Below, piece after piece: positions 7,206 to 23,779 of a stretch of 64,000 nt of DNA. A program made the position numbers and the translations under genes. The first letter of the stretch is position 1. The number at the start of each line of letters is the position of its first letter. The stretch comes from Paludibacter sp. (GTDB lineage Bacteria; Bacteroidota; Bacteroidia; Bacteroidales; Paludibacteraceae): positions 1 to 64,000 of the forward strand of contig JAQTUE010000028.1 of the NCBI GenBank assembly GCA_028710415.1, read 5' to 3'. The notes beneath the pieces are model-generated. The model had not been told where the DNA came from, ran no database searches, and was given only the letters and a program-made list of their open reading frames with translations.

Positions 7206-7274
7206 TACCTAAAAAGAGGTATGCAAATGACCTTCAATTGGTATTTCGTTAGTTGTGGTATTCATCTACTTTTG
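7206..7274 (+). promoter_or_regulatory. Operator/promoter A: tandem 7-2-7 dyads plus TAnnTTTG
   Basis: Dyad 1 is TACCTAAAAAGAGGTA (7206-7221). After a 6-base spacer, dyad 2 is TGACCTTCAATTGGTA (7228-7243). The -7 box TACTTTTG is at 7267-7274, 23 bases after dyad 2. The same dyad-6-dyad-23-box layout occurs at three other promoters in this region. The 16-bp dyads have the geometry of two inverted heptamers separated by 2 bp, as bound by NarL-type regulators. It controls the leader ORF, binding protein, SusCD, peptidase-like and sulfatase operon. Confidence 0.85.
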
Positions 7275-7316
7275 CAAAGTAAATGAGAAACTTCATATTC
7301 AAAAAAAAGCAATAGT

Positions 7317-7493
7317 ATGAACAAAGGAATTTATTACACAACTCAACGATTGTTGTTCATTTCCGGACAACCGGTTGAGCAACTTCCGGAAAGTAACCGG
7401 ATTGTATCATTCGCTCAACTTATTATCTCTCAGGGATCAATTCCCAACCCACCATTATCTACCCGAATGTGCTGCTGTTGCATGCCGTGCTGA
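7317..7493 (+). CDS. Cysteine-cluster leader ORF (putative attenuator peptide)
   Basis: A 58-codon ORF that starts about 35 bases after the predicted transcription start of promoter A. Its C-terminus reads RMCCCCMPC before the TGA at 7491-7493: five Cys codons among the last seven. It has no other gene-like features. By analogy with known polycysteine upstream ORFs that sense cysteine through ribosome stalling (established in mycobacteria), it could couple cysteine supply to expression of the sulfur operon starting at 7629. The 135 bases between it and the next gene contain a hairpin at 7569-7594. That it is translated is inference. Confidence 0.5.
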   Translation: MNKGIYYTTQRLLFISGQPVEQLPESNRIVSFAQLIISQGSIPNPPLSTRMCCCCMPC

Positions 7494-7568
7494 TCCTCAT
7501 TGCCCCAACATCACAAATTCCGGATTCACGGGATAAAAAATATTAATTGCAACCATTTTTTTTACAAT

Positions 7569-7594
7569 GAATTCAGATTAAACCAATCTGATTC
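7569..7594 (+). promoter_or_regulatory. 5'-UTR hairpin before the binding-protein gene
   Basis: GAATTCAGATT pairs with AATCTGATTC with one bulged base and a 5-base loop (AAACC). It lies between the Cys-rich leader ORF and the next CDS and is a candidate for the regulated structure. No U run follows, so it is not a simple terminator. Confidence 0.45.
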
Positions 7595-7628
7595 AGCCAC
7601 AAGTATATTCATTTAATAATTTCAAGAT

Positions 7629-8558
7629 ATGAAAAAGAATTATTTTTATCAAATGCTAGTTGCATTAATTATTTCTTCCACAGCTTTTGCTGCAGAAAAT
7701 GCATCTAATGAACCTGTAATAATTAGTGGTACTAAATTCACCTATCCATTAATCGAAAAATGGATTTCAGAATACGAAAAAGTAAATCCGAATGCAAATA
7801 TAAAACTGACTTCCAAAGCTAATACCGATCAGGTAGCCGACTTAAATATTATTGCGCACCATCCTTTACAAAGTGAGTTACAACACAATCAGGAAATTAT
7901 CTATGCCGGACGTTATGCATTGTTGCCGGTTACAAATAACAACAATCCTATTTTGGCTGCTACTTCTAAGAAAGGATTAAATAGAAAGGATTTAGATAGA
8001 CTTTTCTTTGAAGTGATTGATTATGATAGCGATGAACCAGTACAGAAATCAAAATATAAAGCCAATATTTATTCTCGCGATAATCAAGCTTGTGCTTCCA
8101 CAACCCTGGCCGGATATTTTGGTCATCAGTCTTCTGAAATCAGAGGTAAAAAGGTGTTTGGCGATGATATTTATTTGCTTTCGGCCATCAAGAAAGATTC
8201 AATCGGATTGACATACAATAATTTGGGTTATTTATACGATGTCAACTCACGAAACCTGAAAGAGGGAATTGCTCTTTTACCAATCGAGTTGAAAAAAGAA
8301 GCCAAACTTATTTTATCCGGTAATCTGGACGAAGTGTTGGGTGTGTTGGAGGCTACAAAAGTAGAGACAATTCCAGTGGAGAAAATTGGATTTATCTATT
8401 CCCAACAAAAAGACAGGAAGGAAGTCTCAGCTTTTCTGAAATGGGTTTTGACAGATGGACAGAAGTTTAATCACGAAAAAGGATTTTTAAATCTGGACAA
8501 GCAAGTTCTGGCTGAACAAGTGAACCGATTATCGGATAAGTTCCTATCCCTGAAATAA
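7629..8558 (+). CDS. Periplasmic PstS-like binding protein, divergent paralogue
   Basis: A 309-residue exported protein (signal peptide about 1-21, cleavage after AFA) of the type-2 periplasmic binding fold. It aligns with the binding protein at 23826: RDNQACASTTLAGYFG and SIGLTYNNLGYLYDV correspond to RSDACGAGETWAKYLG and ALGFGYNNIAYAYDL. The N-terminal ligand loop (SGAFALYP in the paralogue) is altered to SGTKFTYP. The Gly-rich GGGAGKG ligand segment of the paralogue is replaced by SKANTDQ. It heads an operon with SusC, SusD and a sulfatase and has no adjacent permease. It may therefore bind a different sulfur oxyanion or organosulfate, or act as a sensor. Confidence 0.75.
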   Translation: MKKNYFYQMLVALIISSTAFAAENASNEPVIISGTKFTYPLIEKWISEYEKVNPNANIKLTSKANTDQVADLNIIAHHPLQSELQHNQEIIYAGRYALLPVTNNNNPILAATSKKGLNRKDLDRLFFEVIDYDSDEPVQKSKYKANIYSRDNQACASTTLAGYFGHQSSEIRGKKVFGDDIYLLSAIKKDSIGLTYNNLGYLYDVNSRNLKEGIALLPIELKKEAKLILSGNLDEVLGVLEATKVETIPVEKIGFIYSQQKDRKEVSAFLKWVLTDGQKFNHEKGFLNLDKQVLAEQVNRLSDKFLSLK

Positions 8559-8581
8559 AAAAACAACTTAATTATAAAAAA

Positions 8582-8628
8582 GCGAGCGTCCCTTTTTCCG
8601 TCGGCAAACTGATACAGGGAACGCCCGC
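8582..8628 (+). promoter_or_regulatory. Intercistronic hairpin between binding protein and SusC
   Basis: GCGAGCGTCCCT (8582-8593) pairs with AGGGAACGCCCGC (8616-8628) with one bulge and one G-U pair, loop about 22 bases. A second small stem, ACAATT/AATTGT, overlaps the SusC start region. The hairpin has no U run, so it more likely tunes mRNA stability between the two genes than ends transcription. Confidence 0.6.
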
Positions 8629-8646
8629 TACAATTCGAAAAATTGT

Positions 8647-11600
8647 ATGGCAAAATTACCATTATTTTTTGGAAACGGCAAAACGTTTCCAGAGTTTCGT
8701 GTACGCAAATCCGGAATCCTATTCCTGTTTGCATTTCTTACTTCACTTTCTACATTTTCCCAGCAGGTTGAAATTAAAGGGACTGTTCTTGAAGAAAACT
8801 CTAAAGCCTCAGTTATTGGAGCAGTTATCAAAATCAAAGGTCAAAAAATAGTTGCAACATCTGATGCAAGTGGAAACTTTGCAGTCAACGTAAAATCACT
8901 CCCGGCAACATTACTCGTATCTTCAGTTGGTTTTAAAAATCAGGAAATTGACGTCTATGAAGCCGAATCTACCTTCATCTACCTTGCTGAAGATCAAAAC
9001 AGACTGAGCACTGTCGTAGTTGTGGGTTATGGAACCCAGAAACGAAGCGATTTTACAGGTTCACTTTCTTCTATTCCAACAGAATTTAAAGGGTTACCGG
9101 TAACTTCTCCCGATCGACTTATTCAAGGGGCGGTTTCAGGTGCCCAGGTTACACAATCGAGTGGTCAACCCGGAGGGGGCGTTTCTATCCGGGTTAGGGG
9201 GGGGACATCCATTAATGCAGGTAACGAACCACTTTATGTTATTGATGGTTTTCCTGTTTATAATGGAGATGCTTCGGTTGATGCAGGTGTAACAAGTGGT
9301 TCAAGCATCAATCCACTTTCAGGCATCAACCCTGATGACATAGAATCAATTGATGTGCTTAAAGATGCTTCTTCTACTGCTATTTATGGTTCACGTGGTG
9401 CAAATGGTGTAATATTGGTTACTACCAAAGCAGGAAAAAAAGGCAACTCATCTGTAACCTATGATGCTTATTATGGTATTCAACGAGTTGCAAAGAAAAT
9501 CGCCCTGTTAAATGCCTCACAATGGGGAGAATTAAAAAATGATGCCCTGAAAGATTCAGGTAAAAGCCCACTTTACTCACAGTCCCAAATCGATTCATTA
9601 GGTGTAGGGACCGATTGGCAAACAGCAGCATTCAGAGATGCACCTGTACAAAGTCACACCATTTCAATCTCATCAGGTACTGATAAAACAAGAATATTAC
9701 TTTCCGGAAATTATTTCAAACAGGAAGGTGTAATTATCAATACCGGTTTCGATCGTTATTCAGGGAAATTAAATCTCGATCATGATATAAATAAGAAGTT
9801 CAAGTTAGGTGTCTATCTGAATGGAAGTGTAACACATGCTGATGTTGCTCCTACAAGTACAGTACCCAATATCTTATCCATGGTTCCTGTTGTTTCAGTG
9901 AAAGATGCAAATGGTAAATATACAGCCAACAGCAGCTATGGTTCAACAGTAGCAAATCCAATTGCCACCTTAGTCGAAGCCATAAATGAAACAAATACAA
10001 CAAGATTTTTATTGAACGGTTTTGGAGAATATAAAATTATTGAAGGTTTAACTGCAAAGGTTTCATTGGGTACAGATATTATAAATAACAAACAAAATAA
10101 GTACACGCCATCTACACTATACGAAAGCTCACCGGGTGGTAATGCGTCTATTGGCTCATTATCTACCCTCAACTGGTTAAACGAAAACACTTTAAATTAC
10201 AAAAAGATAGTTGGTGAAAAACATTCAGTAGATATTCTTATCGGTAATACCCAACAACATTCAATTTCGGAAGCCTATATCGCCGGAGGATCAAATTTCG
10301 CCAGTGATGCGTTTACCTATAACAATATAGGTTCTGGAACCGTATTGGTTGCTCCATCATCATTAAGCAGTGAATGGACACTTCAATCGTACCTCGCCAG
10401 AGTTAATTATGGATATAATGAACTTTATTTATTCACACTTACAGCTCGTGCTGATGGTTCTTCACGCTTTGGAAAAAACAACAAATGGGGAACATTCCCA
10501 TCGGCTGCATTTGCTTGGAATGCATCAAATGAAAAATTTTTGAAAAATATCAAGCAAATAAGCTCATTGAAAGTTCGTTTAAGTGCCGGTTTGACAGGGA
10601 ATCAAGAAATTGATCCATATAAATCGCTTGCGAGACTTTCAAATTACCAATACTCATTTGCTAATACGTTGGTAAATGGTTTTGCAACAAGCAGTTTTGC
10701 CAATGATAACTTAACCTGGGAAAAAACAGCTCAATATGATCTAGGTCTCGATTTGGCACTATTCTCCGATAGAATCCAGTTAACTACTGATATTTATTAT
10801 AAGAAAACATCTGATTTATTATTGGAAGTTCCTGTACCCTTTTCATCAAGTTTATCCAGTGCTTTTCAAAACTGTGGAGTTGTCGAAAATAAAGGGATAG
10901 AAGTAGGATTAAAGACGTTGAACCTGACCGGTAAGTTTGAATGGACTACTAATTTTATATTTTCAGCGAATAAAAATAAAATCTTAAGCCTAGGAGGTGC
11001 GGATTATTTTTTTGTAACAGATCCTGCAAGTACAACTACACTTCCCACCCAAATTATTAAAGTAGGCGAATCAGTTGGAGCATTTTATATGTATAAAACT
11101 GATGGTGTAGATGCTGCTACAGGAAATCAAAAATACAAAAATTTAAATAGTGGAGATGGTGCAATTACTCAAGATGGTGATAGAACTATTGTGGGCAGTT
11201 CTCAACCTAAATTTTTGGCAAGTATTACGAATACTTTCAGGTATAAAAATTTTGATTTATCAGTTTTTCTGAATTCCTCTTACGGGAACAAAATCTTTAA
11301 CTGGACACGTGCTAACCTTGAATTAGGAACAGGTTTTACAGGAGCGGTTGCATCATTATTAAACCGTTGGACTTCAACTAATACAAATACGGATATGCAT
11401 AAAGCTATCGAAAACCCTGCGGTGACAATATCCGATCGATTTGTTGAGGATGGTTCTTATCTTCGACTTAAGAATATTTCTTTTGGTTATACTTTCCCCA
11501 AAAAACTTATCTCTAAGGTCCGGATTAAAAATGCCCGTGTATATGTTTCAGGATCAAACCTACTGACATGGACTAATTATACAGGTTACGATCCTGAAGT

Positions 11601-11697
11601 AAGTACAAATGGTCAAAACTCGATCAGTTCCGGTATGGACAGAGGCGCATATCCTACTGCTAAAACAGTTTTAGGTGGTGTTAGCATTACGTTTTAA
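8647..11697 (+). CDS. SusC/RagA-type TonB-dependent outer-membrane transporter
   Basis: A 1016-residue outer-membrane receptor that imports a large ligand using TonB energy. Order of parts: an N-terminal extension and signal peptide (about 1-39, ending STFSQQ); a carboxypeptidase-regulatory-like domain (about 42-115); the SusC signature VVVGYGTQKRSDFTGS; a plug domain containing SIRVRGGTSINAGNEPLYVIDG and DVLKDASSTAIYGSRGANGVILVTTK; then the beta-barrel ending in VLGGVSITF. The terminal Phe is usual for barrel assembly. It pairs with the SusD at 11732. With the sulfatase downstream and promoter A upstream, the ligand is probably a sulfated compound. Confidence 0.95.
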   Translation: MAKLPLFFGNGKTFPEFRVRKSGILFLFAFLTSLSTFSQQVEIKGTVLEENSKASVIGAVIKIKGQKIVATSDASGNFAVNVKSLPATLLVSSVGFKNQEIDVYEAESTFIYLAEDQNRLSTVVVVGYGTQKRSDFTGSLSSIPTEFKGLPVTSPDRLIQGAVSGAQVTQSSGQPGGGVSIRVRGGTSINAGNEPLYVIDGFPVYNGDASVDAGVTSGSSINPLSGINPDDIESIDVLKDASSTAIYGSRGANGVILVTTKAGKKGNSSVTYDAYYGIQRVAKKIALLNASQWGELKNDALKDSGKSPLYSQSQIDSLGVGTDWQTAAFRDAPVQSHTISISSGTDKTRILLSGNYFKQEGVIINTGFDRYSGKLNLDHDINKKFKLGVYLNGSVTHADVAPTSTVPNILSMVPVVSVKDANGKYTANSSYGSTVANPIATLVEAINETNTTRFLLNGFGEYKIIEGLTAKVSLGTDIINNKQNKYTPSTLYESSPGGNASIGSLSTLNWLNENTLNYKKIVGEKHSVDILIGNTQQHSISEAYIAGGSNFASDAFTYNNIGSGTVLVAPSSLSSEWTLQSYLARVNYGYNELYLFTLTARADGSSRFGKNNKWGTFPSAAFAWNASNEKFLKNIKQISSLKVRLSAGLTGNQEIDPYKSLARLSNYQYSFANTLVNGFATSSFANDNLTWEKTAQYDLGLDLALFSDRIQLTTDIYYKKTSDLLLEVPVPFSSSLSSAFQNCGVVENKGIEVGLKTLNLTGKFEWTTNFIFSANKNKILSLGGADYFFVTDPASTTTLPTQIIKVGESVGAFYMYKTDGVDAATGNQKYKNLNSGDGAITQDGDRTIVGSSQPKFLASITNTFRYKNFDLSVFLNSSYGNKIFNWTRANLELGTGFTGAVASLLNRWTSTNTNTDMHKAIENPAVTISDRFVEDGSYLRLKNISFGYTFPKKLISKVRIKNARVYVSGSNLLTWTNYTGYDPEVSTNGQNSISSGMDRGAYPTAKTVLGGVSITF

Positions 11698-11731
11698 TTC
11701 AAACTCATATCAAAATTTAAAAGTTATCATT

Positions 11732-13255
11732 ATGAAAAAAATATATTTTCTACCTGCCTTCATCTTAAGTGTTTTGTCGGCTTGTACAACTCTTGAGGAA
11801 AGTCCACAATCATTTATTTCACCCGATCAGTTTTATAAAACATCAGGAGATGCTATCTCGGCAGTAAATGCAATTTATTATCCTCTGGTTGATAATAAAG
11901 TAGGAGCGCAACCATTGTACAACAGATTGTTTGATACTGGCCTTGATTTTATGACAGATGATTTGGATGCCGGACCAGGGTCGCCAAACGCTGAAGTTCG
12001 TGCGTTGGCAAAACTAACTCAGGCATCAACCAATCTCCGTATTCAACAAATCTGGACTGAGCACTATGAGGGAATTAATAAAGCAAATATTGCTTTAGAA
12101 AAAATCCCCGGTATAACAATGGATGATAAACTAAAAAACAGATTATTGGGTGAATCCCGCTTCTTAAGAGCATTTTATTATTTTAATCTGGTTCGGCTTT
12201 ATGGCGATGTGCCTTTGTTGTTAACGGACCAAACTAAACTCTCAATAGCAGAATTACAAGTGCCAAGAACTCCAAAAGAGCAGGTTTACACACAAATAAT
12301 AGCAGATTTAATTGAATCGGCCAATTTGTTTAAAAACGGTTCCTCAGGTGAAGCAGGACGTGCTACCGAAGGTGCTGCAAAATCATTATTGTCAAAAGTC
12401 TATTTAACACAACGTGATTGGAGTAATTCTGTAAAGTTGGCCGAAGAAGTAATTAATGGAACTTATGGTTATGCCCTTTTAGATAATTATTCACAAGTGT
12501 TTCTTCCAGCTTACAAAAATGGAAAAGAGCATATCTTTTCAGCTCAGATAAAAGGGAGTACCATCAGTACAGGGCATCTGGTGACTTCAAGTGATATAGA
12601 ATCTGGAGTTCCCGGATTGAAAGGCTCATATGGCAATCAATTAGCTTTTTACACAGTAGGTAACGATAAATTCTTCAGTCTTTATAAACTTTATAATTCC
12701 AAAGATAAACGTAAAAGAGTATCATTTGTAACTTACTATATCAGTCCAACCAATGGTAAAAAGTATGCCACAATAAATGCTCCCGGAGACTCAGTACCTT
12801 TTATAAATAAAAACTGGGATCCAAATTATGCTGCAACCGGACAATCGGATGCCAATGCTAATATATTGCGATTTGCGGAAGTATTACTAATACACGCCGA
12901 AGCTGAAAATGAATTGAATGGTCCAACAGAAAAAGCATATACTTCTATAAATAAAATCAGAAAAAGAGCCGGGATTAACGATCTTACTGCCGGTTTGACA
13001 CAAGATCAGTTTCGTGATTCTGTTTACCTGGAAAGGAGATTAGAACTTGTGGCCGAATATCACAGGTATTTTGATCTTATCCGTGAAACCGGAACTGAAG
13101 TTACAGGAGTTGGACCGGAAGGAAAGGGAATTCTTATCAAAGCATTACAAAAAGTCGGGAAAAACAATGTTTCGGCTAAACATTACTTATATGCCATACC
13201 GCAAGGTGAAAAAGATAGAAATCCGAAACTTACACAAAATCCGGGCTGGGAATGA
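11732..13255 (+). CDS. SusD/RagB-type surface lipoprotein
   Basis: A 507-residue partner of the SusC transporter that caps the barrel and captures the ligand. The start is set at 11732 because this ATG begins a proper lipoprotein signal (MKKIYFLPAFILSVLSAC, lipid Cys18). An upstream in-frame ATG at 11675 would overlap the SusC gene. The SusD N-terminal TPR-like domain includes FLRAFYYFNLVRLYGDVPL. The C-terminus contains LLIHAEAENELNG, ERRLELVAEYHRYFDLIRE and the family ending NPKLTQNPGW. It is 34 bp after SusC and overlaps the next gene by 4 bp (ATGA), so the genes are translationally coupled. Confidence 0.95.
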   Translation: MKKIYFLPAFILSVLSACTTLEESPQSFISPDQFYKTSGDAISAVNAIYYPLVDNKVGAQPLYNRLFDTGLDFMTDDLDAGPGSPNAEVRALAKLTQASTNLRIQQIWTEHYEGINKANIALEKIPGITMDDKLKNRLLGESRFLRAFYYFNLVRLYGDVPLLLTDQTKLSIAELQVPRTPKEQVYTQIIADLIESANLFKNGSSGEAGRATEGAAKSLLSKVYLTQRDWSNSVKLAEEVINGTYGYALLDNYSQVFLPAYKNGKEHIFSAQIKGSTISTGHLVTSSDIESGVPGLKGSYGNQLAFYTVGNDKFFSLYKLYNSKDKRKRVSFVTYYISPTNGKKYATINAPGDSVPFINKNWDPNYAATGQSDANANILRFAEVLLIHAEAENELNGPTEKAYTSINKIRKRAGINDLTAGLTQDQFRDSVYLERRLELVAEYHRYFDLIRETGTEVTGVGPEGKGILIKALQKVGKNNVSAKHYLYAIPQGEKDRNPKLTQNPGWE

Positions 13256-14514
13256 AACTAAAATATTTGTTTTTTGCCATACTGCTTACATTGAACTTTA
13301 ATGCAATTGCACAAGTCAAAACTGAAGCAAATTACTTTGATGGAAATAAGTTATTTTCCATTGTAAAAAAGTATGTTTCACTCGGTGAGCATCGTACCGG
13401 TACTCCAACAGATTTAGCCACATCCGATTGGATAGGATCAGAATTGAAATCAGTTGGCTATGCAGTGAAATATCTTGAATTCCCAATCAAACAATTCTTT
13501 CCTGAAAAAGTTTTTTTAGCACAAGAAAAGGATACGATTCAGGCATTTCCACTTTGGTGGGTTAATGAAAAAATCAAACGTGTTGTAAGTGGAACTTTGG
13601 TGGATGTTGATAAAGTGAAATCATTAAGTGTAAATGATATTGCTTTAATTCATTTCCCATTAAAACAGGTCAACGTAAATCCAAAGATTTATATTGATTC
13701 GTTAATCAAAGCAGGTGTGGTTGGAATTGTTATCATTACAGACAATCAGTCGGGAGAGATTGAAGCATATAACACCAACAAAGATCAACAACCCTGGAAA
13801 GTGCCGATTATTCTTATTGCACCAAATGATAGTGCCAGGGCACTTGCTTTTGTAAAGAGAAATAAACGAATCACGTTGGCAATTAACGGAACTTTCAAAG
13901 ATGTAATTGGTCGAAATGTGTATGGTACTATTGGACATGGTGAAAAGTATATAGTAGTTTCAACACCTATCAGCGGTTGGTTTACTTGTGGCGGCGAACG
14001 TGGTTCAGGTATAGCAATCTGGTTGGCTCTTGCTAAATGGGCCGCTGTTCAAAAAACTGATTACACATTTGTGTTTACAGCTAATTCAGGTCACGAACAT
14101 GCATTTAAAGGTGCACATGAATACCTGGAACGTGATGCACCGCCTGTTTTAAAGACCAAACTTTGGATTCATTTTGGTGCCGGTGCAGCTACACTGGAAT
14201 GGAAAAAAACCTCTCAAGGCTTAGTAAAACAATCCAATGTAGATCCAAATCGCAGGTTCTTTTTTAGCGATTCAGTTAGCACATCATTTAATAATGCTTT
14301 TAAAGATATCGAAGCTCAAAAGATTTTAGCTAACCAAAATCCCGGAGGTGAACTGGTATATGTGGCACGTAAAGGATATACCCGTTTTGCAGGCGTATCA
14401 TATGGACATCCGTTCTTTCATGTTAAAACAGACGACGAAAATACTACTTCGCCAGAAATCCTGGAAGCAACTGCCAAAGCATTTAAAAATTTAATTCTGG
14501 AACAAACAAAATAA
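13252..14514 (+). CDS. Exported M28-peptidase-like protein with PA-like insert
   Basis: A 420-residue protein with a signal peptide (cleavage after AIA, about residue 20). The layout resembles M28 aminopeptidases with a protease-associated insert (about 100-215, DIALIHFPLKQ... VGIVIITDN). The normal metal-binding pattern is altered. Where family members have a His-x-Asp this protein has STPISGWFTCGGERGSG. The Glu-Glu pair is replaced by SGHEHAFKG. GHPFFHVKTDDEN keeps only the last His. It may be a non-peptidase relative, such as a binding or amide-hydrolysing protein. It starts within the SusD stop codon and precedes the sulfatase, so it probably helps process the imported sulfated ligand. 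Confidence 0.7.
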   Translation: MKLKYLFFAILLTLNFNAIAQVKTEANYFDGNKLFSIVKKYVSLGEHRTGTPTDLATSDWIGSELKSVGYAVKYLEFPIKQFFPEKVFLAQEKDTIQAFPLWWVNEKIKRVVSGTLVDVDKVKSLSVNDIALIHFPLKQVNVNPKIYIDSLIKAGVVGIVIITDNQSGEIEAYNTNKDQQPWKVPIILIAPNDSARALAFVKRNKRITLAINGTFKDVIGRNVYGTIGHGEKYIVVSTPISGWFTCGGERGSGIAIWLALAKWAAVQKTDYTFVFTANSGHEHAFKGAHEYLERDAPPVLKTKLWIHFGAGAATLEWKKTSQGLVKQSNVDPNRRFFFSDSVSTSFNNAFKDIEAQKILANQNPGGELVYVARKGYTRFAGVSYGHPFFHVKTDDENTTSPEILEATAKAFKNLILEQTK

Positions 14515-14530
14515 TTTTAAAAGATATTTT

Positions 14531-16849
14531 ATGAACAAATTGTATTTAAAAACAGGAAGTTTCGGACTATTGGCAACGTCATTACTGACGAGTGCATTTG
14601 GTCAAAATCCACAGGCAGTGACATCTGCCAACGGATTTAAGGGGAAAATTGGTAAAACGTTGGCCGATTCACAAGAATCATGGCCGGAAAAGAAAACATC
14701 GCCTAAAGGAGCTCCTAATGTGGTAGTCTGGTTGATTGATGATGCCGGTTATGGTACTTCCAGTGCATTTGGAGGTTTAATGGAAACTCCGATACTGGAT
14801 AGTTTGGCAAATAATGGGTTGCGTTACACCAACTTTCATTCAACCGGCGTAAGTTCTCCAACCCGTGCAGCATTGTTGACTGGTCGAAATCACCATTCAG
14901 TTCACATGGGAACCCTGAATTACAGTTCCCAGGGTTTTCCCGGTTACGATGCCATTATGCCGGGGGATAAAGCAACCATTGCAGAAGTGTTGCATGAAAA
15001 TAATTATAACACATTTGCTGTTGGTAAATATCACGTTGCACCTTTGGATGAAATTACAGCCAATGGACCTTTTGATCGTTGGGCTGTAGGTCGTGGCTTC
15101 GACCATTTTTATGGTTTCCAACTAGGTCATACCGATCAATTTCATCCTAATTTATATGAAGATACCAAAGTGATTGACATTGAGCCAAACACCAAGCATT
15201 TAACTACTTTGCTTGCTGATAAAGCCATTAGTTACATTTCAAATCAAAAATCAATTTCACCTGATAAACCGTTTTTCCTCTATTTTGCTTCTGGTGCAAT
15301 TCACTCGCCACATCAGGTCGAAAAGAAATGGAGCGATTTGTACAAAGGCAAATTTGATAAAGGTTGGGACTGGTATCGGGAAGAAGTATTTGCCCGTCAG
15401 AAAAGGCTGGGAGTTATTCCTGCAGATGCCATTTTACCCGACCGTGATCCGACAGTAAAAGCATGGAATAGTCTTACGCCCGAACAGAAAAAAGTATATG
15501 CCCGCTTTATGGAAGTATATGCAGGTTTCTTAACACATGCGGATTATGAATTTGGTCGCATTGTCAATCATTTGAAAGAAATAGGGCAAGCCGATAATAC
15601 CATTATTCTTGTAAGCATTGGCGATAATGGTTCAAGCCATAGTCCGAGAAACGGTACATTAAATGGATATATCAGTAGTCTGGACGAAGACAAACAAGTG
15701 GCCGAACTATATAAAAATATAGATAAGATTGGAACAGAACATTCGTTTGAAGATGCTCCTTCTGGCTGGACACAAGCTACCAATACACCTTTCCGCCTGT
15801 GGAAAGCCGATCCCAACAGCGAAGGGGGAACTCACCAACCATTGATAGTATATTATCCCAACGGGAAATTGGAAAAAGGTGGAATCCGTGAACAATATGG
15901 TCATGTGATTGACATAGCACCAACTATTTATGAACTTACCGGAGCAAAAGTACCTGAAATGATTAAAGGCTATAAACAACAACCTCTCGAAGGAACTAGT
16001 CTTGCATATTCTATTTACGATGCTAAAGCAACAAACCGTCATACAGTACAATATTATGAGCTTTTTGGAAAAAGGGCAATCGTAAAAGATGGTTGGAAGG
16101 CATCTGTGTTTCACCAATCCGGAGCTGATTTTGCAAAAGATATCTGGGAGCTTTACGATCTGAAAAAAGACTTTAACGAGCGTATTGATCTTGCTTCTAA
16201 ATTTCCAGTAAAGGTCAAGGAACTTCAAGCTGTGTTCGATGAAGAAGCAAAAAAGTACAATGTATATCCTTTAATCGACAATGCATTGGGTCATAGTGCC
16301 GGAGGAAGAGCACGTAGTCCCTATGGTTTGAATAAAAAAGTCGTTTTGTACACCGGAATTGATCAATTGCTTACCTATAGTGGACCACAATTTCAGGGCG
16401 ATCCGTTTACTATTACGGCTGATATAGATCTAAAATCAACAGCCGATCAAGGCGTTTTATTTGCGACCGGTTCTGAATTTGATGGCTTAAGTTTATACAT
16501 AAAAGATGGAAAATTTCAGGTGGCTCATAACACAGGAACTATTGTGAAATATTTGGAATCAAATACAACAGTTCCCGTTGGGAAATCCAAGTTGAGATTT
16601 GAATTCAATTACATTGCGCCTGCAGTGAAAGGACGACGAAACTTTACTACACCTGCAGGAACAGAAGCCTTATACATTAACGACCAAAAAGTGGCAGAAA
16701 GAGATATTGTTGCCTCCGAAGGCTTTATTGCTGTATACAAGGATGGTATTGATGTTGGCTCTGACAGAAACTCGCCGGTTACCGATCATTACAAAGTACC
16801 TTTTGCTTTTACCGGAAAATTGAATAATGTAACGATTGAATATAAATAA
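14531..16849 (+). CDS. Serine-type formylglycine sulfatase (arylsulfatase family)
   Basis: A 772-residue exported sulfatase (signal peptide about 1-24, cleavage before QNP). The alkaline-phosphatase-fold core starts with NVVVWLIDDAGYG, which supplies metal ligands D70 and D71. The modification motif is S108-S-P-T-R112, i.e. the [C/S]-x-P-x-R signature with Ser as the residue to be oxidised to formylglycine. GKYH and IGDNGSS are further active-site segments. A C-terminal domain from about 600 looks like a lectin or jelly-roll domain. Ser-type sulfatases need the radical-SAM maturase, and one is encoded at 22357. It is the last gene of the promoter A operon and is followed by a terminator. Confidence 0.92.
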   Translation: MNKLYLKTGSFGLLATSLLTSAFGQNPQAVTSANGFKGKIGKTLADSQESWPEKKTSPKGAPNVVVWLIDDAGYGTSSAFGGLMETPILDSLANNGLRYTNFHSTGVSSPTRAALLTGRNHHSVHMGTLNYSSQGFPGYDAIMPGDKATIAEVLHENNYNTFAVGKYHVAPLDEITANGPFDRWAVGRGFDHFYGFQLGHTDQFHPNLYEDTKVIDIEPNTKHLTTLLADKAISYISNQKSISPDKPFFLYFASGAIHSPHQVEKKWSDLYKGKFDKGWDWYREEVFARQKRLGVIPADAILPDRDPTVKAWNSLTPEQKKVYARFMEVYAGFLTHADYEFGRIVNHLKEIGQADNTIILVSIGDNGSSHSPRNGTLNGYISSLDEDKQVAELYKNIDKIGTEHSFEDAPSGWTQATNTPFRLWKADPNSEGGTHQPLIVYYPNGKLEKGGIREQYGHVIDIAPTIYELTGAKVPEMIKGYKQQPLEGTSLAYSIYDAKATNRHTVQYYELFGKRAIVKDGWKASVFHQSGADFAKDIWELYDLKKDFNERIDLASKFPVKVKELQAVFDEEAKKYNVYPLIDNALGHSAGGRARSPYGLNKKVVLYTGIDQLLTYSGPQFQGDPFTITADIDLKSTADQGVLFATGSEFDGLSLYIKDGKFQVAHNTGTIVKYLESNTTVPVGKSKLRFEFNYIAPAVKGRRNFTTPAGTEALYINDQKVAERDIVASEGFIAVYKDGIDVGSDRNSPVTDHYKVPFAFTGKLNNVTIEYK

Positions 16850-16986: not shown

Positions 16987-17055
16987 TACCTAAAAAAAGG
17001 TATTTAAATGACTCAGAATAGGTATTTTATATACTAAATAGATCCTGTATTTTTG
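16987..17055 (+). promoter_or_regulatory. Operator/promoter B of cysK
   Basis: Dyad 1 TACCTAAAAAAAGGTA (16987-17002), 6-base spacer, dyad 2 TGACTCAGAATAGGTA (17009-17024), then 23 bases to the -7 box TATTTTTG (17048-17055). Dyad 1 differs from that of operator A at a single position. This makes cysK part of the same predicted regulon. Confidence 0.85.
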
Positions 17056-17092: not shown

Positions 17093-18079
17093 ATGGCAAA
17101 AATAGCAAAACAACTAACCGAATTGGTTGGGAACACTCCCCTTTTAGAATTGAGTAATTATGAAACGGTAAAAAAGCTTGAAGCAACAGTAGTTGCAAAA
17201 CTTGAATACTTTAATCCAACAGGAAGTGTTAAAGATCGTATCGCTTTGGCAATATTGGAAGATGCAGAGCAAAAAGGGTTATTGAATAAAGATTCAGTCA
17301 TTGTTGAACCTACAAGTGGAAATACTGGAGTTGGTTTGGCATTTGTTGCGGCTGTCAAAGGCTATCGGTTGATAATTACTATGCCCGAAACGTTCAGTGT
17401 CGAACGCCGTAACTTGTTGAATGCACTTGGAGCTGAAGTGGTACTAACCCCCGGATCGCTTGGCATGAATGGGGCAGTGGCTAAGGCGCAGGAAATTGCA
17501 GACAGTATTCCAAACTCGTTTTTACCTCAGCAATTTGAAAATCCTGCAAATCCTGAGGTACATAAACGTACTACTGCCGAAGAAATTTGGCGTGATACGG
17601 ACGGAAAGGTTGATCTGTTCGTTGCAGGTGTTGGTACCGGTGGAACGATAAGCGGAGTAGGAGAGGTGTTGAAGAAATATAACCCGAACATACAGATTGT
17701 AGCTGTTGAGCCTGCCGAATCACCATTACTTTCAGGAGGAACAGCCGGCCCGCATAAAATTCAGGGCATAGGGCCAAACTTTATACCCGGTACTTTTAAC
17801 CGCGCCGTGGTAGACGAAATTCTTAGAGTAAAGAGTGATGATGCGATATTAACTGCCCGTGAACTGGCCCGATTGGAAGGATTGCTGGTAGGTATATCGT
17901 CCGGTGCTGCAGTTTATGGTGCTGCAGTTTTAGCAAAACGTCCTGAAAATAAGGGTAAGACAATAGTTGCAATTCTACCCGATACCGGTGAACGCTATCT
18001 TTCGACAGTGTTGTATGCTTTTAAAGAATATCCATTGAAAAAGGAGTTGTTCGATTTATTGAAGGTGAGTTTTTTCTGA
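17093..18079 (+). CDS. cysK: Cysteine synthase (O-acetylserine sulfhydrylase)
   Basis: A 328-residue PLP enzyme that makes cysteine from O-acetylserine and sulfide. The PLP-binding lysine is K47 in NPTGSVKDR. The substrate loop is PTSGNTG (73-79), the phosphate loop is GTGGTISG, and GISSGAA lies near the C-terminus. It is monocistronic and driven by operator/promoter B, whose layout is shared with the sulfate-ester operon, the TonB-maturase unit and the sulfate transport unit. This is the last step of the sulfur pathway encoded around it. Confidence 0.95.
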
Positions 18080-18550
18080 ATACAACCATAGAAAAGTGGA
18101 GTAATTGATAGACAGAAATAATGTTGTATTTTATATCATTAATTGCTTGCTTCCTATTGTCCAACTTTTCAAACTTGAAACCTCAAACCTCAAACTTGGA
18201 ACCTCAACCCTTTTAACCCATACAAGTCATTCAGAACTGAACAAAGAGCACGCAACAGGAAGATGAACCCATCAGGGTAGTAGGCATTAGGAACAATTAA
18301 ATTTCACATTTTTAATTTAATAAAATAGATCGCTGACGAAACATTACGACTTGTCAGAATGGTTCAACAGCGTTTTAGTTTTAAATTATTTGTTCGCTTT
18401 TTTCGCTCAAAAAACAGCTCATTCCTGACGGCAAGTCTTAGCGATAGGAATCTTGATTGAATTTTCAGTATTGAAGGAAAATACCATCAAGTTGCTGCAC
18501 TTTTTAAAAGCACATCTCCAGAATTCAGCCTGAAACTGTTCTTCGTTCAG
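18080..18550. other. Intergenic region with CAAACCT-type repeat
   Basis: No gene is supported. Positions about 18166-18212 hold a short degenerate array of CAAACCT/CAAACTT units, the complement of the GTTTGAG array at 45749-45795. The remainder is unremarkable AT-rich sequence. Confidence 0.5.
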
Positions 18551-18640
18551 AGGGGGTTCATTGAGGGTTCATTGAGGGTTGGTTGAGGGTTCATTGAGGT
18601 AAACCTCATTGAACCCTCAACCAACCCTCTCTATACCCCC
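18551..18640. repeat. GAGGGTTCATT repeat forming a 27-bp hairpin, copy 1
   Basis: Tandem GAGGGTTCATT / GAGGGTTGGTT units on the left are mirrored by their complement on the right. Positions 18574-18600 and 18603-18629 pair over 27 bp with one mismatch and a 2-base loop. A related element occurs at 31797-31891. It lies in the gap upstream of the LuxR-type regulator gene. Confidence 0.9.
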
Positions 18641-18843
18641 TTTGAAAGGTTACTGTACAGAAAATGAATGATATTGAAATTCAGAACGAATTCCAGTGGA
18701 ATTTGCGAATAGAATCATTTTTTAAAACTCATCTTGTTATCCCCCACTTATGGTATGTAAATACTGTGTTTCGGGTATTTCAGAAACTTAAAAATAGTAT
18801 GAACTTTGTAAAAGAATTAATGGAATTTGAAAACATAAAAACT

Positions 18844-19506
18844 ATGGCTGATGTTACTTTTATTATTGCTGAAAATAACGACTTGTGTCGTTTGGGCTTG
18901 AAGTGCATCATACTTGACCAGTTTAATTTGGCTGCCATTCACATTACCAGTACCAAACTTGAGCTGCACAGCACGTTGCTGTCGAATAGTGAAGCAATAG
19001 TAATTATCGATTTTGATAGCCTGGCTATTGATCATATTGATGAAGTGGCTGTACTTTCGGCATGTTTCCCAAAATCCAACTGGCTCTTTATAGGGGATTT
19101 GCCCGATGAAAACTTTCTGATGCCACTGACAGCTTCTTTTGAAAAGGCAAATTTTGTATTAAAAACAAATGATTATGATGTTATTGCAACTGCTATTATT
19201 GCAACCGTTTCGGGAAGGAAATACTATTGCAGCGAGGCACTTCAAATAATCATGGATGGGCATAACCATAAAAAAGAAAATTCAGCAAAACGCAACCTGC
19301 TTACCATTACCGAAATGGAACTTGTCCAGCTTTTTACCCAGGGCAAAACTGCCAAAGAAATAGCTGAATTACGATGCCTGAGCCATCATACTATCAATAC
19401 CCACCGAAAGAATATCTTCCGAAAACTGGAACTGAACAACATACAGGAACTGATTAAATTTGCCCTGAAAAATGGATTGGTGGATTTGACGGAGTATTAT
19501 ATATAG
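18844..19506 (+). CDS. NarL/LuxR-type response regulator
   Basis: A 220-residue two-domain regulator. The N-terminal receiver starts ADVTFIIAENNDLCRLGLK. Possible acidic residues are E10 and D13, the putative phospho-acceptor is D56 in VIIDFD, and the conserved Lys is K107. The C-terminal LuxR-type HTH spans about 153-211 (LTITEMELVQLFTQGKTAKEIAE... HHTINTHRKNIFRKL). An upstream in-frame ATG at 18664 would add 60 residues with no domain character, so 18844 is preferred because the receiver begins there. No histidine kinase is adjacent. Its place between cysK and the TonB-maturase unit makes it the best candidate to bind operators A-D; this is inference. Confidence 0.8.
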   Translation: MADVTFIIAENNDLCRLGLKCIILDQFNLAAIHITSTKLELHSTLLSNSEAIVIIDFDSLAIDHIDEVAVLSACFPKSNWLFIGDLPDENFLMPLTASFEKANFVLKTNDYDVIATAIIATVSGRKYYCSEALQIIMDGHNHKKENSAKRNLLTITEMELVQLFTQGKTAKEIAELRCLSHHTINTHRKNIFRKLELNNIQELIKFALKNGLVDLTEYYI

Positions 19507-19534: not shown

Positions 19535-19603
19535 TACCGCAATCGGGGTATTAATATACTCAAATTGCGGTATTTTATTGGATGTTGGTTCAGCGTAATT
19601 TTG
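19535..19603 (+). promoter_or_regulatory. Operator/promoter D of the TonB receptor-maturase unit
   Basis: Dyad 1 TACCGCAATCGGGGTA (19535-19550), 6-base spacer, dyad 2 TACTCAAATTGCGGTA (19557-19572), 23 bases, then TAATTTTG (19596-19603). The inner bases differ from sites A and B while the TACC/GGTA ends and all spacings are kept, as expected for a conserved binding site. Confidence 0.85.
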
Positions 19604-19652
19604 CACTCATAAAATTTGATAAGATATTAAAACAATATAAAACTATTCAATT

Positions 19653-22238
19653 ATGAGCATCAAGATTTACGCATTATTCCTTTTTCTGGCAATTGGCCTT
19701 ACAGCATTTGCCCAAAACAAACAAACCCAACTGACAGGTAAAGTAAAAGATGGAGCTACCGGTGAAACTTTAATTGGTGTTTCGATACAGATTGAAGGTT
19801 CAACTGATATCGTGAAAACTGATAACAATGGCAATTTCAATCTGAATACGAATAAGAAACTTCCTTTTACGGTTGTTGTGAATTATGTAGGCTACCAAAA
19901 ACAAGAAAATATAATTGAAAGTGTGGATGGTGAATTTGTATTTGAAATACGCCAGAGCACGAATCTGTTAAGTAAAGTTGTCGTAACATCCCGTCGTCGG
20001 GCTGAAACGGCTCAGGATATTCCGATTCCGATTTCAGTTATAAGTGGTGGGTTGGTAGCCGAATCCGGTGCATTCAACGTAAACCGTGTGAAGGAACTTA
20101 TTCCTTCTGTGCAGCTTTATTCGTCAAATCCACGTAACACGGGGATTAATATCCGTGGTTTAGGTTCGTCTTTCGGACTGACAAACGATGGTATCGACCC
20201 GGGAGTAGGTTTTTATGTGGATGGAGTTTATTATGCCCGTCCGGCAGCTACGACGCTCGACTTTATCGATGTGGAACAAATTGAGGTACTGCGTGGGCCA
20301 CAGGGTACCCTGTTTGGTAAGAACACTACTGCCGGTGCATTCAACGTTACAACCAAAAAACCAAGCTTTACACCAGGTGCAAACTTTGAACTGAGCTATG
20401 GTAACTATGGATATATTCAGGCAAAAACATCCATCACGGGCCCTCTGACAAAAAATCTGGCTGCCAGAGTCTCTTTTTCAGGGACTCAACGTGATGGAAC
20501 TATTTATAACGTGGCAAAGCAGGAATATGTGAATAGTCTGAATAACCTGGGGGTAAGAGGACAACTTCTATATAAACCAAACGAAAATACGAATATCACC
20601 CTGATTGCCGATGCGACCCGTCAACGTCCAAACGGATATGCACAAGTGTACGCAGGAACAGTAACTACTTTGCGTTCCAACTACCGGCAATTCAGCACCA
20701 TCACTTCTGCGTTGGGATATACGCTTCCAAGCACAAATCCATTCGACAGGATTATTGACCAGGATACACCGGCCAAGTCAAATCAGGATTTAGGAGGCGT
20801 TTCGTTGAATGCTGACTTTAAACTTGGTTCAGGAACACTGACTTCGACTACCGCGTGGCGTTATTGGAAATGGGATCCATCTACCGACCGTGACTTTACA
20901 GAACTACAGGCATTGAACCTGTCACAGGCACCTTCGAAACACAATCAATGGTCGCAGGAAATTCGTTGGGCAGGTAGTTTATCTTCAAATCTGACGGCTG
21001 TTTTTGGAGTTTTTGTTTTTGCCCAAGACTTGAAATCGGACACAGTGCAAACAGAAGAGGCAGGGAAAGACCAATGGCGGTTTTCAAGTACTGACGCGAC
21101 TGCCGAAGCATCCTGGAAAACTCCTGGATTGTTGGATGGCTATGGAATTAAAACCAAATCGGAACTGAACACCTTTAGTGGTGCTGCTTTTGGGCAGGTT
21201 GACTGGGCAATTACCAAACGCTTACACGTTTTACCTGGGCTTCGTGCCAACTACGATAGAAAAAAGGTGGACTACAAAAGAACAACCTATGGCGGGTTAC
21301 AAACATCCGATGCAGCACTTCTGGCATTGAAAAAATCAGTTTACAGTAATCAGTCGTTTAATGCAGACAAGGATAATACCAATTTCTCGGGTCAGTTGAC
21401 TATAGCATACAAAGTCAGCAAGAGTATCAATGCATTTGCCACTTATGCCAGTAGTTACAAACCGGTAGGATTAAATCTGGGTAGTTTACCTACTCCGGCT
21501 GCAGGTTCTACTTTATCCGATTTGGCAGTAGTGAAACCGGAAAAAGTGAATCACATTGAAATTGGGGTAAAAACTACGCCAACTGCAAATTCTACCTTGA
21601 ATTTAACTGTTTATAATACAGATATAAAAGATTACCAAACACTGGTTCAATCACCGGAATTGGGTGTAAACCGCGGTTATCTGGCAAATGCTGAAAAAGT
21701 GAATGTACGTGGAGCTGAATTGGATGGTGATATCAAGGTTACTAAAAACCTTTCATTCTATGGCTCACTATCCTATACCGATGGCAAATATGTTACCTTT
21801 ACCAATGCGCCGCTTCCACTCGAAGAAACCGGTTTGAAAGATGCAAATGGGAAATCCGTTTATTTTAAAGATATTTCAGGCAGCGTATTGCCGGGTATCT
21901 CTAAATGGGCCGGATCAATTGGCGGCGAATACTCTATAAAGGGAAATTTATTAGGCAACTCAGGTAATTTTTTCATTGCTTCTGACGTTTACGCTCGTTC
22001 TTCATTCTCTTCAAGTCCTTCACCTTCAAAGTATCTGAATATAGCTGGTTATTCCTTATTGAATGCCAGAATTGGTTTTCGTGCCACTGATGGCGTGTCC
22101 GTTACCCTTTGGGGCCGCAACATACTTGATAAAGATTATTTTGAGCAACTATTACCCGGTGCCGGTAATTCAGGTCAATATGCCGGTGTCCTTGGTGACC
22201 CAAGAACAGTTGGTGTAACCATTAAATATGCTTTCTAA
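19653..22238 (+). CDS. TonB-dependent receptor with carboxypeptidase-like N-domain
   Basis: An 861-residue outer-membrane receptor with a signal peptide (about 1-20, AFAQ). Next come a carboxypeptidase-regulatory-like domain (about 25-100), a TonB-box-like KVVVTSRRRAE, a plug domain (about 115-230, with INIRGLGSSFG and EVLRGPQGTLFGKNTTAGAFNVTTK) and a beta-barrel ending in IKYAF. It is not of the SusC type and has no SusD partner. Shared control with sulfur genes suggests it imports a small organosulfur or sulfate-ester compound. A hairpin separates it from the downstream maturase gene, with which it probably shares promoter D. Confidence 0.92.
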   Translation: MSIKIYALFLFLAIGLTAFAQNKQTQLTGKVKDGATGETLIGVSIQIEGSTDIVKTDNNGNFNLNTNKKLPFTVVVNYVGYQKQENIIESVDGEFVFEIRQSTNLLSKVVVTSRRRAETAQDIPIPISVISGGLVAESGAFNVNRVKELIPSVQLYSSNPRNTGINIRGLGSSFGLTNDGIDPGVGFYVDGVYYARPAATTLDFIDVEQIEVLRGPQGTLFGKNTTAGAFNVTTKKPSFTPGANFELSYGNYGYIQAKTSITGPLTKNLAARVSFSGTQRDGTIYNVAKQEYVNSLNNLGVRGQLLYKPNENTNITLIADATRQRPNGYAQVYAGTVTTLRSNYRQFSTITSALGYTLPSTNPFDRIIDQDTPAKSNQDLGGVSLNADFKLGSGTLTSTTAWRYWKWDPSTDRDFTELQALNLSQAPSKHNQWSQEIRWAGSLSSNLTAVFGVFVFAQDLKSDTVQTEEAGKDQWRFSSTDATAEASWKTPGLLDGYGIKTKSELNTFSGAAFGQVDWAITKRLHVLPGLRANYDRKKVDYKRTTYGGLQTSDAALLALKKSVYSNQSFNADKDNTNFSGQLTIAYKVSKSINAFATYASSYKPVGLNLGSLPTPAAGSTLSDLAVVKPEKVNHIEIGVKTTPTANSTLNLTVYNTDIKDYQTLVQSPELGVNRGYLANAEKVNVRGAELDGDIKVTKNLSFYGSLSYTDGKYVTFTNAPLPLEETGLKDANGKSVYFKDISGSVLPGISKWAGSIGGEYSIKGNLLGNSGNFFIASDVYARSSFSSSPSPSKYLNIAGYSLLNARIGFRATDGVSVTLWGRNILDKDYFEQLLPGAGNSGQYAGVLGDPRTVGVTIKYAF

Positions 22239-22269
22239 ATTCATCGATATATACATATAAATTTGTAAA

Positions 22270-22298
22270 TGAGGGTTTCATGTTTAGTGAAACCCTCA
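22270..22298 (+). terminator. Intercistronic hairpin after the TonB receptor
   Basis: An 11-bp perfect stem (TGAGGGTTTCA / TGAAACCCTCA) with a 7-base loop but no U run. It probably lowers read-through into the maturase gene, or protects the upstream mRNA, rather than stopping transcription fully. Confidence 0.6.
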
Positions 22299-22356
22299 GT
22301 ATATATGATTAATGATAGTCTATTGAATTCAGACATATAATAACAAACTTATAAAA

Positions 22357-23574
22357 ATGTCCAAAACAATACAATTTAATCCGCTAAAATATCCGGTTTA
22401 TGTAATGGCAAAACCGATAGGTCCGGCGTGTAACCTGCGTTGCAGTTATTGTTATTATCTGGACAAGGAGGGTTTAAGTCCAAAGACCAGCACGAACCGA
22501 ATGAGCGATGCCACCCTGGAATTGTTTACCGAACAATATATCAATGCCCAGCCCGGTGTTGAGATATTGTTTACCTGGCATGGTGGCGAGCCGCTTTTGT
22601 TGGGTTTGGATTATTACCGGAAAGCACTTTGCTTACAAAAAGCTTATGGACGAAACAGGCAAATTGATAACACCCTGCAAACAAATGGCGTATTGCTAAC
22701 CGAGGAATGGTGCACGTTCTTCAAAGAAAATAACTTCCTGATAGGCATTTCCATTGATGGTCCCGAACATTGTCATAATAAATACCGCCGGACAATTCAG
22801 GATAATGGTTCATTTCAACAGGTATTGAATGGCATTAAATTACTGCAAAAACATCAGGTGGAATTCAATGTATTATCGGTAATAAATGATTATAATGTGC
22901 AATTTCCCATGGAAGTATATCATTTTTTCAAATTGATGGGAGCTAAATACATTCAATTTTCTCCGGTAGTGGAACGTTTGAATGCTGCATCCGATTTCCT
23001 TTCAGCACCCGATAATACGGAAGGTAAACTAACTTCCTGGTCGGTTGGTTCCATGGAATACGGGCAGTTCCTTACTACCATTTTTGATGAATGGGTGCGG
23101 CATGATGTGGGTGAAACATTTGTGACTACTTTCGATGCCACTCTTGCAAGTTTTGTGGGTGCACCAGCCGGAACATGCGTATATTCCGAAACCTGTGGCC
23201 ATGCTGCTGCCCTGGAAGCTAATGGTGATTTATATAGTTGCGATCATTTTGTTTTTCCGGAATACAACCAAGGAAATATTCACAAGAAAACCATTACCGA
23301 AATGATGCTTTCTCCGGTGCAATTCAAATTTGGTGATGATAAGCGGGATAAACTATCATCAGCTTGCAGGCAATGTAAATACCTGAAACTTTGCCATGGC
23401 GAATGTCCCAAGAATCGTATCCTGAGATTGGCAGATGGTTCAACACATAATTACCTTTGCACAGGATTGAAACATTATTTTAACCATGTAGAACCATATA
23501 TGAAGTTTATGGCAAACGAGTTGAAACATAAACGTGCACCTTCGAATGTTAAGTTCTGGACTAAAACGGAATGA
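22357..23574 (+). CDS. Anaerobic sulfatase-maturating enzyme (radical SAM)
   Basis: A 405-residue radical-SAM enzyme that oxidises the Ser or Cys of a sulfatase to formylglycine without oxygen. The SAM-binding cluster is C25-x3-C29-x2-C32 (CNLRCSYC). The C-terminal SPASM-type region has the expected Cys set: TCVYSETCGHAAALEANGDLYSCDHF, then CRQCKYLKLCHGECP and YLC. It follows the TonB receptor by 118 bp and ends at a strong terminator. The matching substrate is the Ser-type sulfatase at 14531. Co-regulation by operators A and D would express enzyme and maturase together. Confidence 0.94.
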   Translation: MSKTIQFNPLKYPVYVMAKPIGPACNLRCSYCYYLDKEGLSPKTSTNRMSDATLELFTEQYINAQPGVEILFTWHGGEPLLLGLDYYRKALCLQKAYGRNRQIDNTLQTNGVLLTEEWCTFFKENNFLIGISIDGPEHCHNKYRRTIQDNGSFQQVLNGIKLLQKHQVEFNVLSVINDYNVQFPMEVYHFFKLMGAKYIQFSPVVERLNAASDFLSAPDNTEGKLTSWSVGSMEYGQFLTTIFDEWVRHDVGETFVTTFDATLASFVGAPAGTCVYSETCGHAAALEANGDLYSCDHFVFPEYNQGNIHKKTITEMMLSPVQFKFGDDKRDKLSSACRQCKYLKLCHGECPKNRILRLADGSTHNYLCTGLKHYFNHVEPYMKFMANELKHKRAPSNVKFWTKTE

Positions 23575-23622
23575 TATTTAATGTGTTGATAAATTTTACA
23601 TTTTCAATTCCATACTTTCAAG

Positions 23623-23660
23623 AGTTAGAATATCATATGAACTGATATTCTAACTTTTTT
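23623..23660 (+). terminator. Terminator after the maturase
   Basis: A 13-bp perfect stem (AGTTAGAATATCA / TGATATTCTAACT) with a 7-base loop, followed by six T residues. Confidence 0.92.
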
Positions 23661-23710
23661 CGTATATAAATGTAAATTTCAGACAAATAGCTGCTTCCGA
23701 GTAGCTCATA

Positions 23711-23779
23711 TACCTCAATAAAGGTACAAATATACCACCACAATGGTATGGTGGACCTATATTGTTTCCCGTAATTTTG
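23711..23779 (+). promoter_or_regulatory. Operator/promoter C of the sulfate transport-sulfite reductase unit
   Basis: Dyad 1 TACCTCAATAAAGGTA (23711-23726), 6-base spacer, dyad 2 TACCACCACAATGGTA (23733-23748), 23 bases, then TAATTTTG (23772-23779). Both dyads here keep intact TACC and GGTA ends, so this is the closest to an ideal site of the four. Confidence 0.85.

Follow-up and report, generated by a model that had tools for sequence, protein, structure and literature searches.

The region analysed here, referred to as the window, is a stretch of 64,000 nucleotides from Paludibacter sp. (Bacteroidota; GenBank assembly GCA_028710415.1, contig JAQTUE010000028.1, positions 1 to 64,000 of the forward strand), in which a series of genes with apparent roles in sulfur metabolism is preceded by tandem operator-like sites of one shared architecture (Table 1). 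The original prediction comprised four such sites (A, B, D and C), each reading TACC-N8-GGTA, a 6-bp spacer, a 16-mer ending in GGTA, a further 23 bp and the promoter box TAnnTTTG, and letter-by-letter inspection bears this out at all four. The full pattern is found on both strands of the window exclusively at these positions, and in none of 200 simulated first-order Markov windows. The list was incomplete, as a fifth site (E) had been overlooked 5' of the regulator gene; it has two mismatches to the pattern, keeps the N23 register unchanged and scores 42.8 bits with the site model described below. GAGGGTT-rich direct and inverted repeats occupy window positions 18540-18645, also 5' of the regulator gene.

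Table 1. Tandem sites and associated genes in the window (coordinates are window positions)
Feature	Coordinates	Strand	Remarks
Site A	7206..7274	+	tandem operator and TAnnTTTG; heads PBP-SusC-SusD-hypothetical-sulfatase
Periplasmic binding protein (PBP)-like	7629..8558	+	PF12849 below cut-off; same place in locus L110
SusC-type TonB receptor	8647..11697	+	
SusD	11675..13255	+	
Protein without Pfam match at E 0.001	13252..14514	+	kept in locus L110
Sulfatase	14531..16849	+	
Site B	16987..17055	+	tandem operator and TAnnTTTG; heads cysK
cysK, cysteine synthase A	17093..18079	+	TSGNTG, QQFEN and GIGPNF segments kept
Site E	18740..18808	+	tandem operator and GAACTTTG at N23; 35 bp 5' of regulator start codon
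Regulator, NarL/FixJ type, 220 aa	18844..19506	+	receiver-like domain and GerE/LuxR helix-turn-helix (HTH)
C-terminal -E-Y-Y-I tail of regulator	19492..19503	+	proposed CysK-docking peptide; model residues 216-220 below 50 in predicted local distance difference test (pLDDT)
Site D	19535..19603	+	tandem operator and TAnnTTTG; heads TonB receptor-sulfatase maturase
TonB-dependent receptor	19653..22238	+	
Anaerobic sulfatase maturase	22357..23574	+	
Site C	23711..23779	+	tandem operator and TAnnTTTG; heads PstSCAB-like importer-sulfite reductase/TusA
PstS-, PstC-, PstA- and PstB-like importer genes	23826..27503	+	
NirA/SiR-type reductase fused to C-terminal TusA domain	27562..29910	+	kept in locus L111

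The PstSCAB-like "phosphate" importer belongs to the sulfur units, precedes the sulfite reductase and is also headed by a site in locus L110; its cargo may therefore be sulfate or another sulfur anion.

Architecture of the sites

The sites had been described as eight 16-bp dyads. At A, B, D and C the distal dyad has 5-6 of 8 complementary positions (4/8 at E), but the proximal dyads at A and B are weak. Proximal dyads have 3/8 complementary positions at A, B and E, against 2.1 expected from random 16-mers, and 5/8 at D and C. The 6-bp spacer and the resulting 22 bp between dyad centres likewise apply to sites A to D, but a 7-bp spacer fits three held-out sites of the same genome and several sites in relatives, where both 6 and 7 bp occur, giving centre distances of 22 or 23 bp. 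The distance of 23 bp between the proximal dyad and the -7 box varies less than this spacer. A matrix built from 17 sites of relatives still ranks C (51.3), D (39.8), E (36.5), A (35.0) and B (29.9) as the top five of the window, in agreement with the earlier view that the sites are not simple duplicates; the next scores are 15.4 (reverse strand of C) and 5.4, and the best in 20 Markov windows is 13.3. Given this ranking, the absence of the pattern from simulated windows and the conservation of sites across other families, an origin as chance or duplicated promoter DNA is vanishingly improbable.

The dyads have the 7-2-7 form of NarL sites, i.e. 16-bp inverted heptamers TAC...GTA, as does the engineered NarL site TACCCCTAAAGGGGTA (PMC4549865). 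TACC-N8-GGTA heptamer pairs of this kind are bound by an HTH dimer in NarL/NarP (PMC4549865), whereas the present sites form a fixed tandem, 22-23 bp apart, at a fixed 23-bp step from TAnnTTTG and in front of sulfur rather than nitrate genes. The TAnnTTTG box has been mapped at -12 to -5 in Flavobacterium psychrophilum (PMC9723704), which would place the proximal 16-mer at -51 to -36 and the distal 16-mer at -73 to -58 (6-bp spacer). Among 26 aligned sites the -7 box reads TAnnTTTG in 21 and GAnnTTTG in five, fitting promoters of the Bacteroidota primary sigma factor, and no dyad overlaps it. The first three bases of the 23-bp spacer are TTT or TTG in 23/26 of these sites, about where a -33 TTTG would begin (PMC7366714). 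The proximal dyad therefore ends directly 5' of the -33 region, the position originally proposed for an activator, and from this arrangement we infer that an activator contacts sigma, while a second dimer sits two helical turns further 5'.

The predicted sulfur regulon in the genome and in relatives

Allowing up to three mismatches, the pattern has 12 matches across the assembly (6.28 Mb, 104 contigs), compared to three for a reversed control. Those with no or one mismatch are A, B, D and C together with sites before cysJ-cysI, MoeB/ThiF-JAB genes and cysE (the last assigned from family matches below their cut-offs), while those with two mismatches are site E and the reverse strand of C. The three-mismatch match C55:109005 was retained, given that its serine hydrolase is also preceded by a site in four other loci (L062, L063, L074 and L116). 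Two further three-mismatch matches (C7:2892 and C48:5342) are absent from the site-model list and were dismissed as chance, as was L001 (C26:115478), which is absent from a search requiring the promoter box.

A site model was made from the sequences of 26 sites (nine from this genome, 17 from relatives) in an ungapped alignment over 77 columns. Applied to 150 of 6,818 first-look candidates in the genome, so that weak sites may have been overlooked, it gives 12 matches at 35.5-52 bits followed by a drop to 22 bits; nine of these are training sites and three were held out. The strong sites head two cysK genes, cysE, cysJI, a cysDNH-type operon, MoeB-JAB, the PstSCAB-like importer with sulfite reductase, SusCD-sulfatase, TonB-maturase, the regulator, a DUF4395 gene and a serine hydrolase. 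Of the held-out sites, C81:361602 precedes the second cysK with CGS/metB, C89:76652 the DUF4395 gene, and C55:118925 an operon of a PAPS_reduct-domain protein, an EF-Tu-type GTPase and cysH, read as cysD-cysN-cysH. Remaining sites of the genome score 29-57 with the relatives-only matrix. The pattern is thus not widespread before unrelated genes, its strong matches falling mostly at sulfur genes with a clean score gap, and the grouping of the units behind A, B, C and D into one sulfur regulon is upheld by this search and by the relatives. Both the regulon and its operator are strongly supported at the level of sequence comparison.

Neither the DUF4395 protein nor the serine hydrolase, which stand for two of the 12 units, is known to act in sulfur metabolism; the hydrolase adjoins siroheme-type genes. 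Their position names them as candidate sulfur genes: the DUF4395 gene is operator-headed in two genomes (L108 4666-5130 (-); L127 of genome G002, 3517-3978 (-)), and the PF06821 serine hydrolase in five (L020 7890-8417 (-), L062, L063, L074 and L116).

Sites of the same form were found in 12 of 24 genomes of the order that have a full-length regulator match (own genome excluded; 31 have a match of any length), with 21 places at up to three mismatches against three for the reversed control. According to blastp against proteins of the own genome, 16 of the 21 lie in front of a gene homologous to a regulon member or near neighbour, namely cysK (6), CGS/metB (4), serine hydrolase (3), SusC (2) and mnmA (1), of which the SusC matches carry little weight, being 32% identical and of a common receptor type. 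The other five (L057, L068, L071, L073 and L076) have no match to the own-genome reference proteins by blastp; L073 and L076 are one place on two strands, and the L071 place precedes an SDF-type symporter. Nine further families of the order have sites before sulfur genes (f3, f20, f24, f30, f59, f60, f62, f78 and f111). Genome G219 retains separate sites for the units that lie behind A, D and C in the window; there they precede pstSCAB, PBP-SusCD-sulfatase (two), a TonB receptor, the maturase and SiR-TusA. Another G219 site is found 1.4 kb 5' of a DsrE-like gene and JAB, and cysK, CGS, cysJI, the serine hydrolase, the siroheme genes and a cysD/N/H-type operon are headed by sites as well.

The regulator family and its co-occurrence with the sites

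The gene at 18844 had been taken for the regulator, and its assignment to the NarL/FixJ type is borne out by its GerE HTH (PF00196 at 2.2e-13), its nearest NCBIfam models, which are response regulators (down to 3e-22, all below cut-offs), and Foldseek matches of its structure model (mean pLDDT 78.5, four sequences) to LiaR, VraR, RcsB and NarL. PADLOC returned three matches, none better than 3e-05 and all in the HTH part; CARF models account for two of them. A second copy, 36% identical, lies on another contig, two genes before cysE and near mnmA.

Regulator matches at E<=1e-20 occur in 32 of 198 genomes of the order, own included, and reach the last residue in 25. Sites were sought with the site model in 247 genomes, scoring 19 candidates per genome, so that weak sites may again have escaped notice. 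Co-occurrence was assessed among the 110 matches listed, assuming that the 198 regulator-searched genomes lie within the 247 and excluding the 12 genomes from which training sites were taken (regulator-bearing genomes, plus L056). A site at E<=1e-6 is present in 7/13 genomes with a full-length regulator match and in 2/173 without (Fisher p=4e-8), a threshold chosen after seeing the list and applied to related genomes that are not independent; at E<=1e-4 the hand-counted figures are 12/13 and 25/173 (p=8e-9). Outside the order, a query with the paralogue matched 69 of 395 genomes of the phylum, 63 of them in family f136, which is placed in another class. In the best 26 f136 loci by E-value the regulator adjoins cysK in 25, and a tandem site (7-bp spacer, matrix score at least 15) lies between the two genes in 19, often with a weaker -7 box.

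The conserved tail and its proposed binding to CysK

The regulator ends in -DLTEYYI. The fetched loci contain 90 homologous frames at E<=1e-9, with a [DE]-Y-x-I tail present in 64 and absent from 26; five of the 64 are cut-off copies of genes already counted, leaving 59 tail-bearing proteins among 85 distinct homologues (EYYI 28, EYHI 25, DYYI 3, EYTI 1, EYNI 1 and EYCI 1). All 59 tails have a terminal Ile and a Tyr two residues before it, and so the same 59 of 85 carry a C-terminal peptide with upstream aromatic/acidic residues. In a first set of 37 homologous frames, 31 ended in this way and six otherwise, and the tail is present at 30/30 loci fetched by E-value in the phylum-wide search. 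There is a slight overlap in E-value between the two groups, with 5e-19 for the weakest tail-bearing frame and 1e-21 for the best one lacking a tail. The tail reaches about five residues beyond the end of generic homologues, and among the ten GerE matches of the own genome it is found on the two sulfur regulators only, the other eight lacking it.

The same proteins differ in their receiver domain. The second acidic pocket residue is D or E in 0/59 tail-bearing proteins and D in 22/25 tail-less ones, the tail-less comparison set (26) being small and no random sample of response regulators; a complete acidic pocket (two acidic residues, Asp and Lys) is accordingly not found in the tail-bearing regulators. 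The receiver Lys is kept in 62/64 tail-bearing frames. No cognate histidine kinase was seen among the genes scanned at 7206-29910, and no genome-wide search for one was made.

Tails ending in Ile are known to bind CysK, the last Ile contributing ~80% of the binding energy, and the bound tail is displaced by O-acetylserine and stabilised by sulfide; Ile motifs are also noted for the CysK partners CdiA-CT, EGL-9 and CymR (PMC12895370, PMC5562914, PMC4961446). For Salmonella CysK, affinities of 0.22 uM for MNYDI and 120 uM for MNLNI are given, linking a Tyr two residues before Ile to high affinity; the same source has Mycobacterium tuberculosis CysE ending in DFSI, 2Q3C as the structure of M. tuberculosis CysK1 with DFSI, and EWSI (by docking) and EFSI discussed as tetrapeptide inhibitors of Leishmania CysK (PMC9547175). 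The own CysK has its best PDB matches among cysteine synthases, including the sequence of entries 2q3b and 2q3c, and keeps the peptide-binding segments whose residues are named in PMC12895370 (Table 1). The own CysE and seven f136 CysE proteins, from eight fetched regions, end in -DGLGI (L077 CysE has no such tail), and therefore CysK in these organisms probably already binds tails. The regulator tail would resemble those of CysE, CdiA-CT and EGL-9 as a C-terminal Ile peptide for the active site of CysK or its homologue (PMC12895370, PMC5562914, PMC9547175), but differs in sitting on a DNA-binding protein and in having Tyr two before Ile in 59/59 cases.

Taken together, we consider it likely that the sites are the operator-promoters of one sulfur/cysteine regulon of about 12 units, governed by a tail-bearing NarL/FixJ regulator that is held by CysK. 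Comparative sequence evidence supports the regulon, the operator, the regulator family and the conserved tail; every step of the mechanism beyond the tail, including CysK docking and its direction, activation rather than repression, and which copy binds which site, we infer. The acting regulator would be the tail-bearing family, i.e. the product of 18844-19506 and the second copy near mnmA/cysE. With ample sulfide, the regulator would be bound to CysK through its tail; under sulfide shortage, O-acetylserine would accumulate and displace the tail, and the freed regulator would fill both dyads. Two NarL/FixJ-type dimers would then occupy two 7-2-7 half-site pairs, 22-23 bp apart and centred near -43 and -65, with the proximal dimer abutting the -33 element and recruiting the primary sigma factor that reads TAnnTTTG. 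Sulfate/sulfonate capture, sulfatases, sulfate reduction and cysteine synthesis would thereby be switched on.

Known regulators offer partial parallels. CysB of enterobacteria likewise governs sulfate uptake, reduction and cysteine synthesis with an O-acetylserine logic, but unlike the present regulator it is a LysR-type sensor that binds its ligand directly. CymR is an Rrf2-type repressor, whereas the present regulator is of the NarL/FixJ type with upstream tandem operators, so that any likeness would be convergent. The likeness lies in a cysteine-metabolism regulator under CysK control with a C-terminal motif containing Ile (PMC12895370), and in Bacillus subtilis CysK stabilises CymR on DNA (PMC12895370, PMC4961446). 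By analogy, the CysK-regulator complex could be the DNA-binding form, repressing in sulfur plenty and released on starvation, which we regard as unlikely given that the sites lie wholly 5' of the -7 box and at a constant 23 bp from it, where activators usually bind.

Several observations weigh against control of the regulon by a CysK-held regulator. Six of the 13 non-training regulator genomes have no site at E<=1e-6, and at 1e-4 sites also occur in 25/173 genomes without regulator. No tail-bearing regulator was found at E<=1e-8 in nine of 11 searched genomes with site-like matches (G055, G170, G226, G010, G171, G017, G211, G128 and G062; it is present in G219 and G239), and three of the nine (G055, G170 and G226) have site matches below 1e-6; another NarL-type protein may recognise a similar operator in these three. 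Conservation of site E is lacking: a same-strand upstream site scoring at least 15 exists at 1/59 tail-bearing regulators, the present one, so that autoregulation does not hold in general. All 59 tail-bearing proteins retain the phospho-Asp, leaving room for phosphorylation of the receiver, and the -DGLGI tail of CysE means that CysK would serve two partners.

The nine genomes without tail-bearing regulator, together with the ten GerE matches of the own genome, could indicate that the sites belong to another NarL/LuxR-type protein and that the tail-bearing regulators control cysK only. We hold this to be very unlikely in view of the co-occurrence of regulator and sites (7/13 vs 2/173) and their gene neighbourhood, and many matches in regulator-less genomes span just a single dyad plus the promoter (roughly model positions 18-76). 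Alternatively, regulon and regulator may be as proposed and the tail serve to cap the HTH dimer structurally or to signal proteolysis, with control by phosphorylation from an unlinked kinase or by a small sulfur metabolite, for which the retained phospho-Asp and Lys and the lack of a tail on other NarL-type proteins of the genome could speak. This seems rather doubtful for a tail that extends past the end of generic homologues, is modelled with low confidence, is Ile-terminal throughout, carries the Tyr that raised affinity in CysK peptides and belongs to regulators adjoining cysK in nearly all loci of family f136.

If CysK does hold the regulator, a transcription factor unrelated to CymR would likewise be under CysK control, and the pathway may gauge how much sulfur it has through the enzyme that makes cysteine. 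No description of the regulator or motif was found among the papers listed by searches of open-licence PubMed Central, and one may exist elsewhere. The analysis yields an operator, a regulator family and a gene list that includes sulfatase loci and the Pst-like importer. More broadly, we lean slightly towards the view that many Bacteroidota sense sulfur via a NarL/FixJ factor without canonical phosphorelay and with a CysE-like tail, CysK being the sensor and O-acetylserine and sulfide setting the amount of free regulator, and that in some genomes tailed regulon proteins (two GNAT proteins and an ABC-importer ATPase) make CysK a hub for transcription, acetylation and uptake.

Tails of this kind were surveyed in 576 distinct C-termini of frames of at least 150 aa in the fetched loci, spurious frames included, of which 45 end in [DE][FWY]xI: 42 regulators, two GNAT proteins from sulfur loci of the own genome and one ABC ATPase of genome G133. 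The ATPase, part of an importer (L122 3825-4628 (-) = L088 566-1453 (-)), lies behind a site, is followed by an NMT1-type binding protein and ends in -EIEYSI; its tail is not supported as a conserved trait, with one relative at E<=1e-70 among 99 genomes, aligned to residue 253 of 267 only. The two GNAT acetyltransferases (L022 4415-4924 (+) and L021 12857-13366 (-)) end in -EYFI and -EYYI and lie behind cysE and behind the MoeB-JAB genes, respectively; GNAT homologues in L196 and L111 have no tail.

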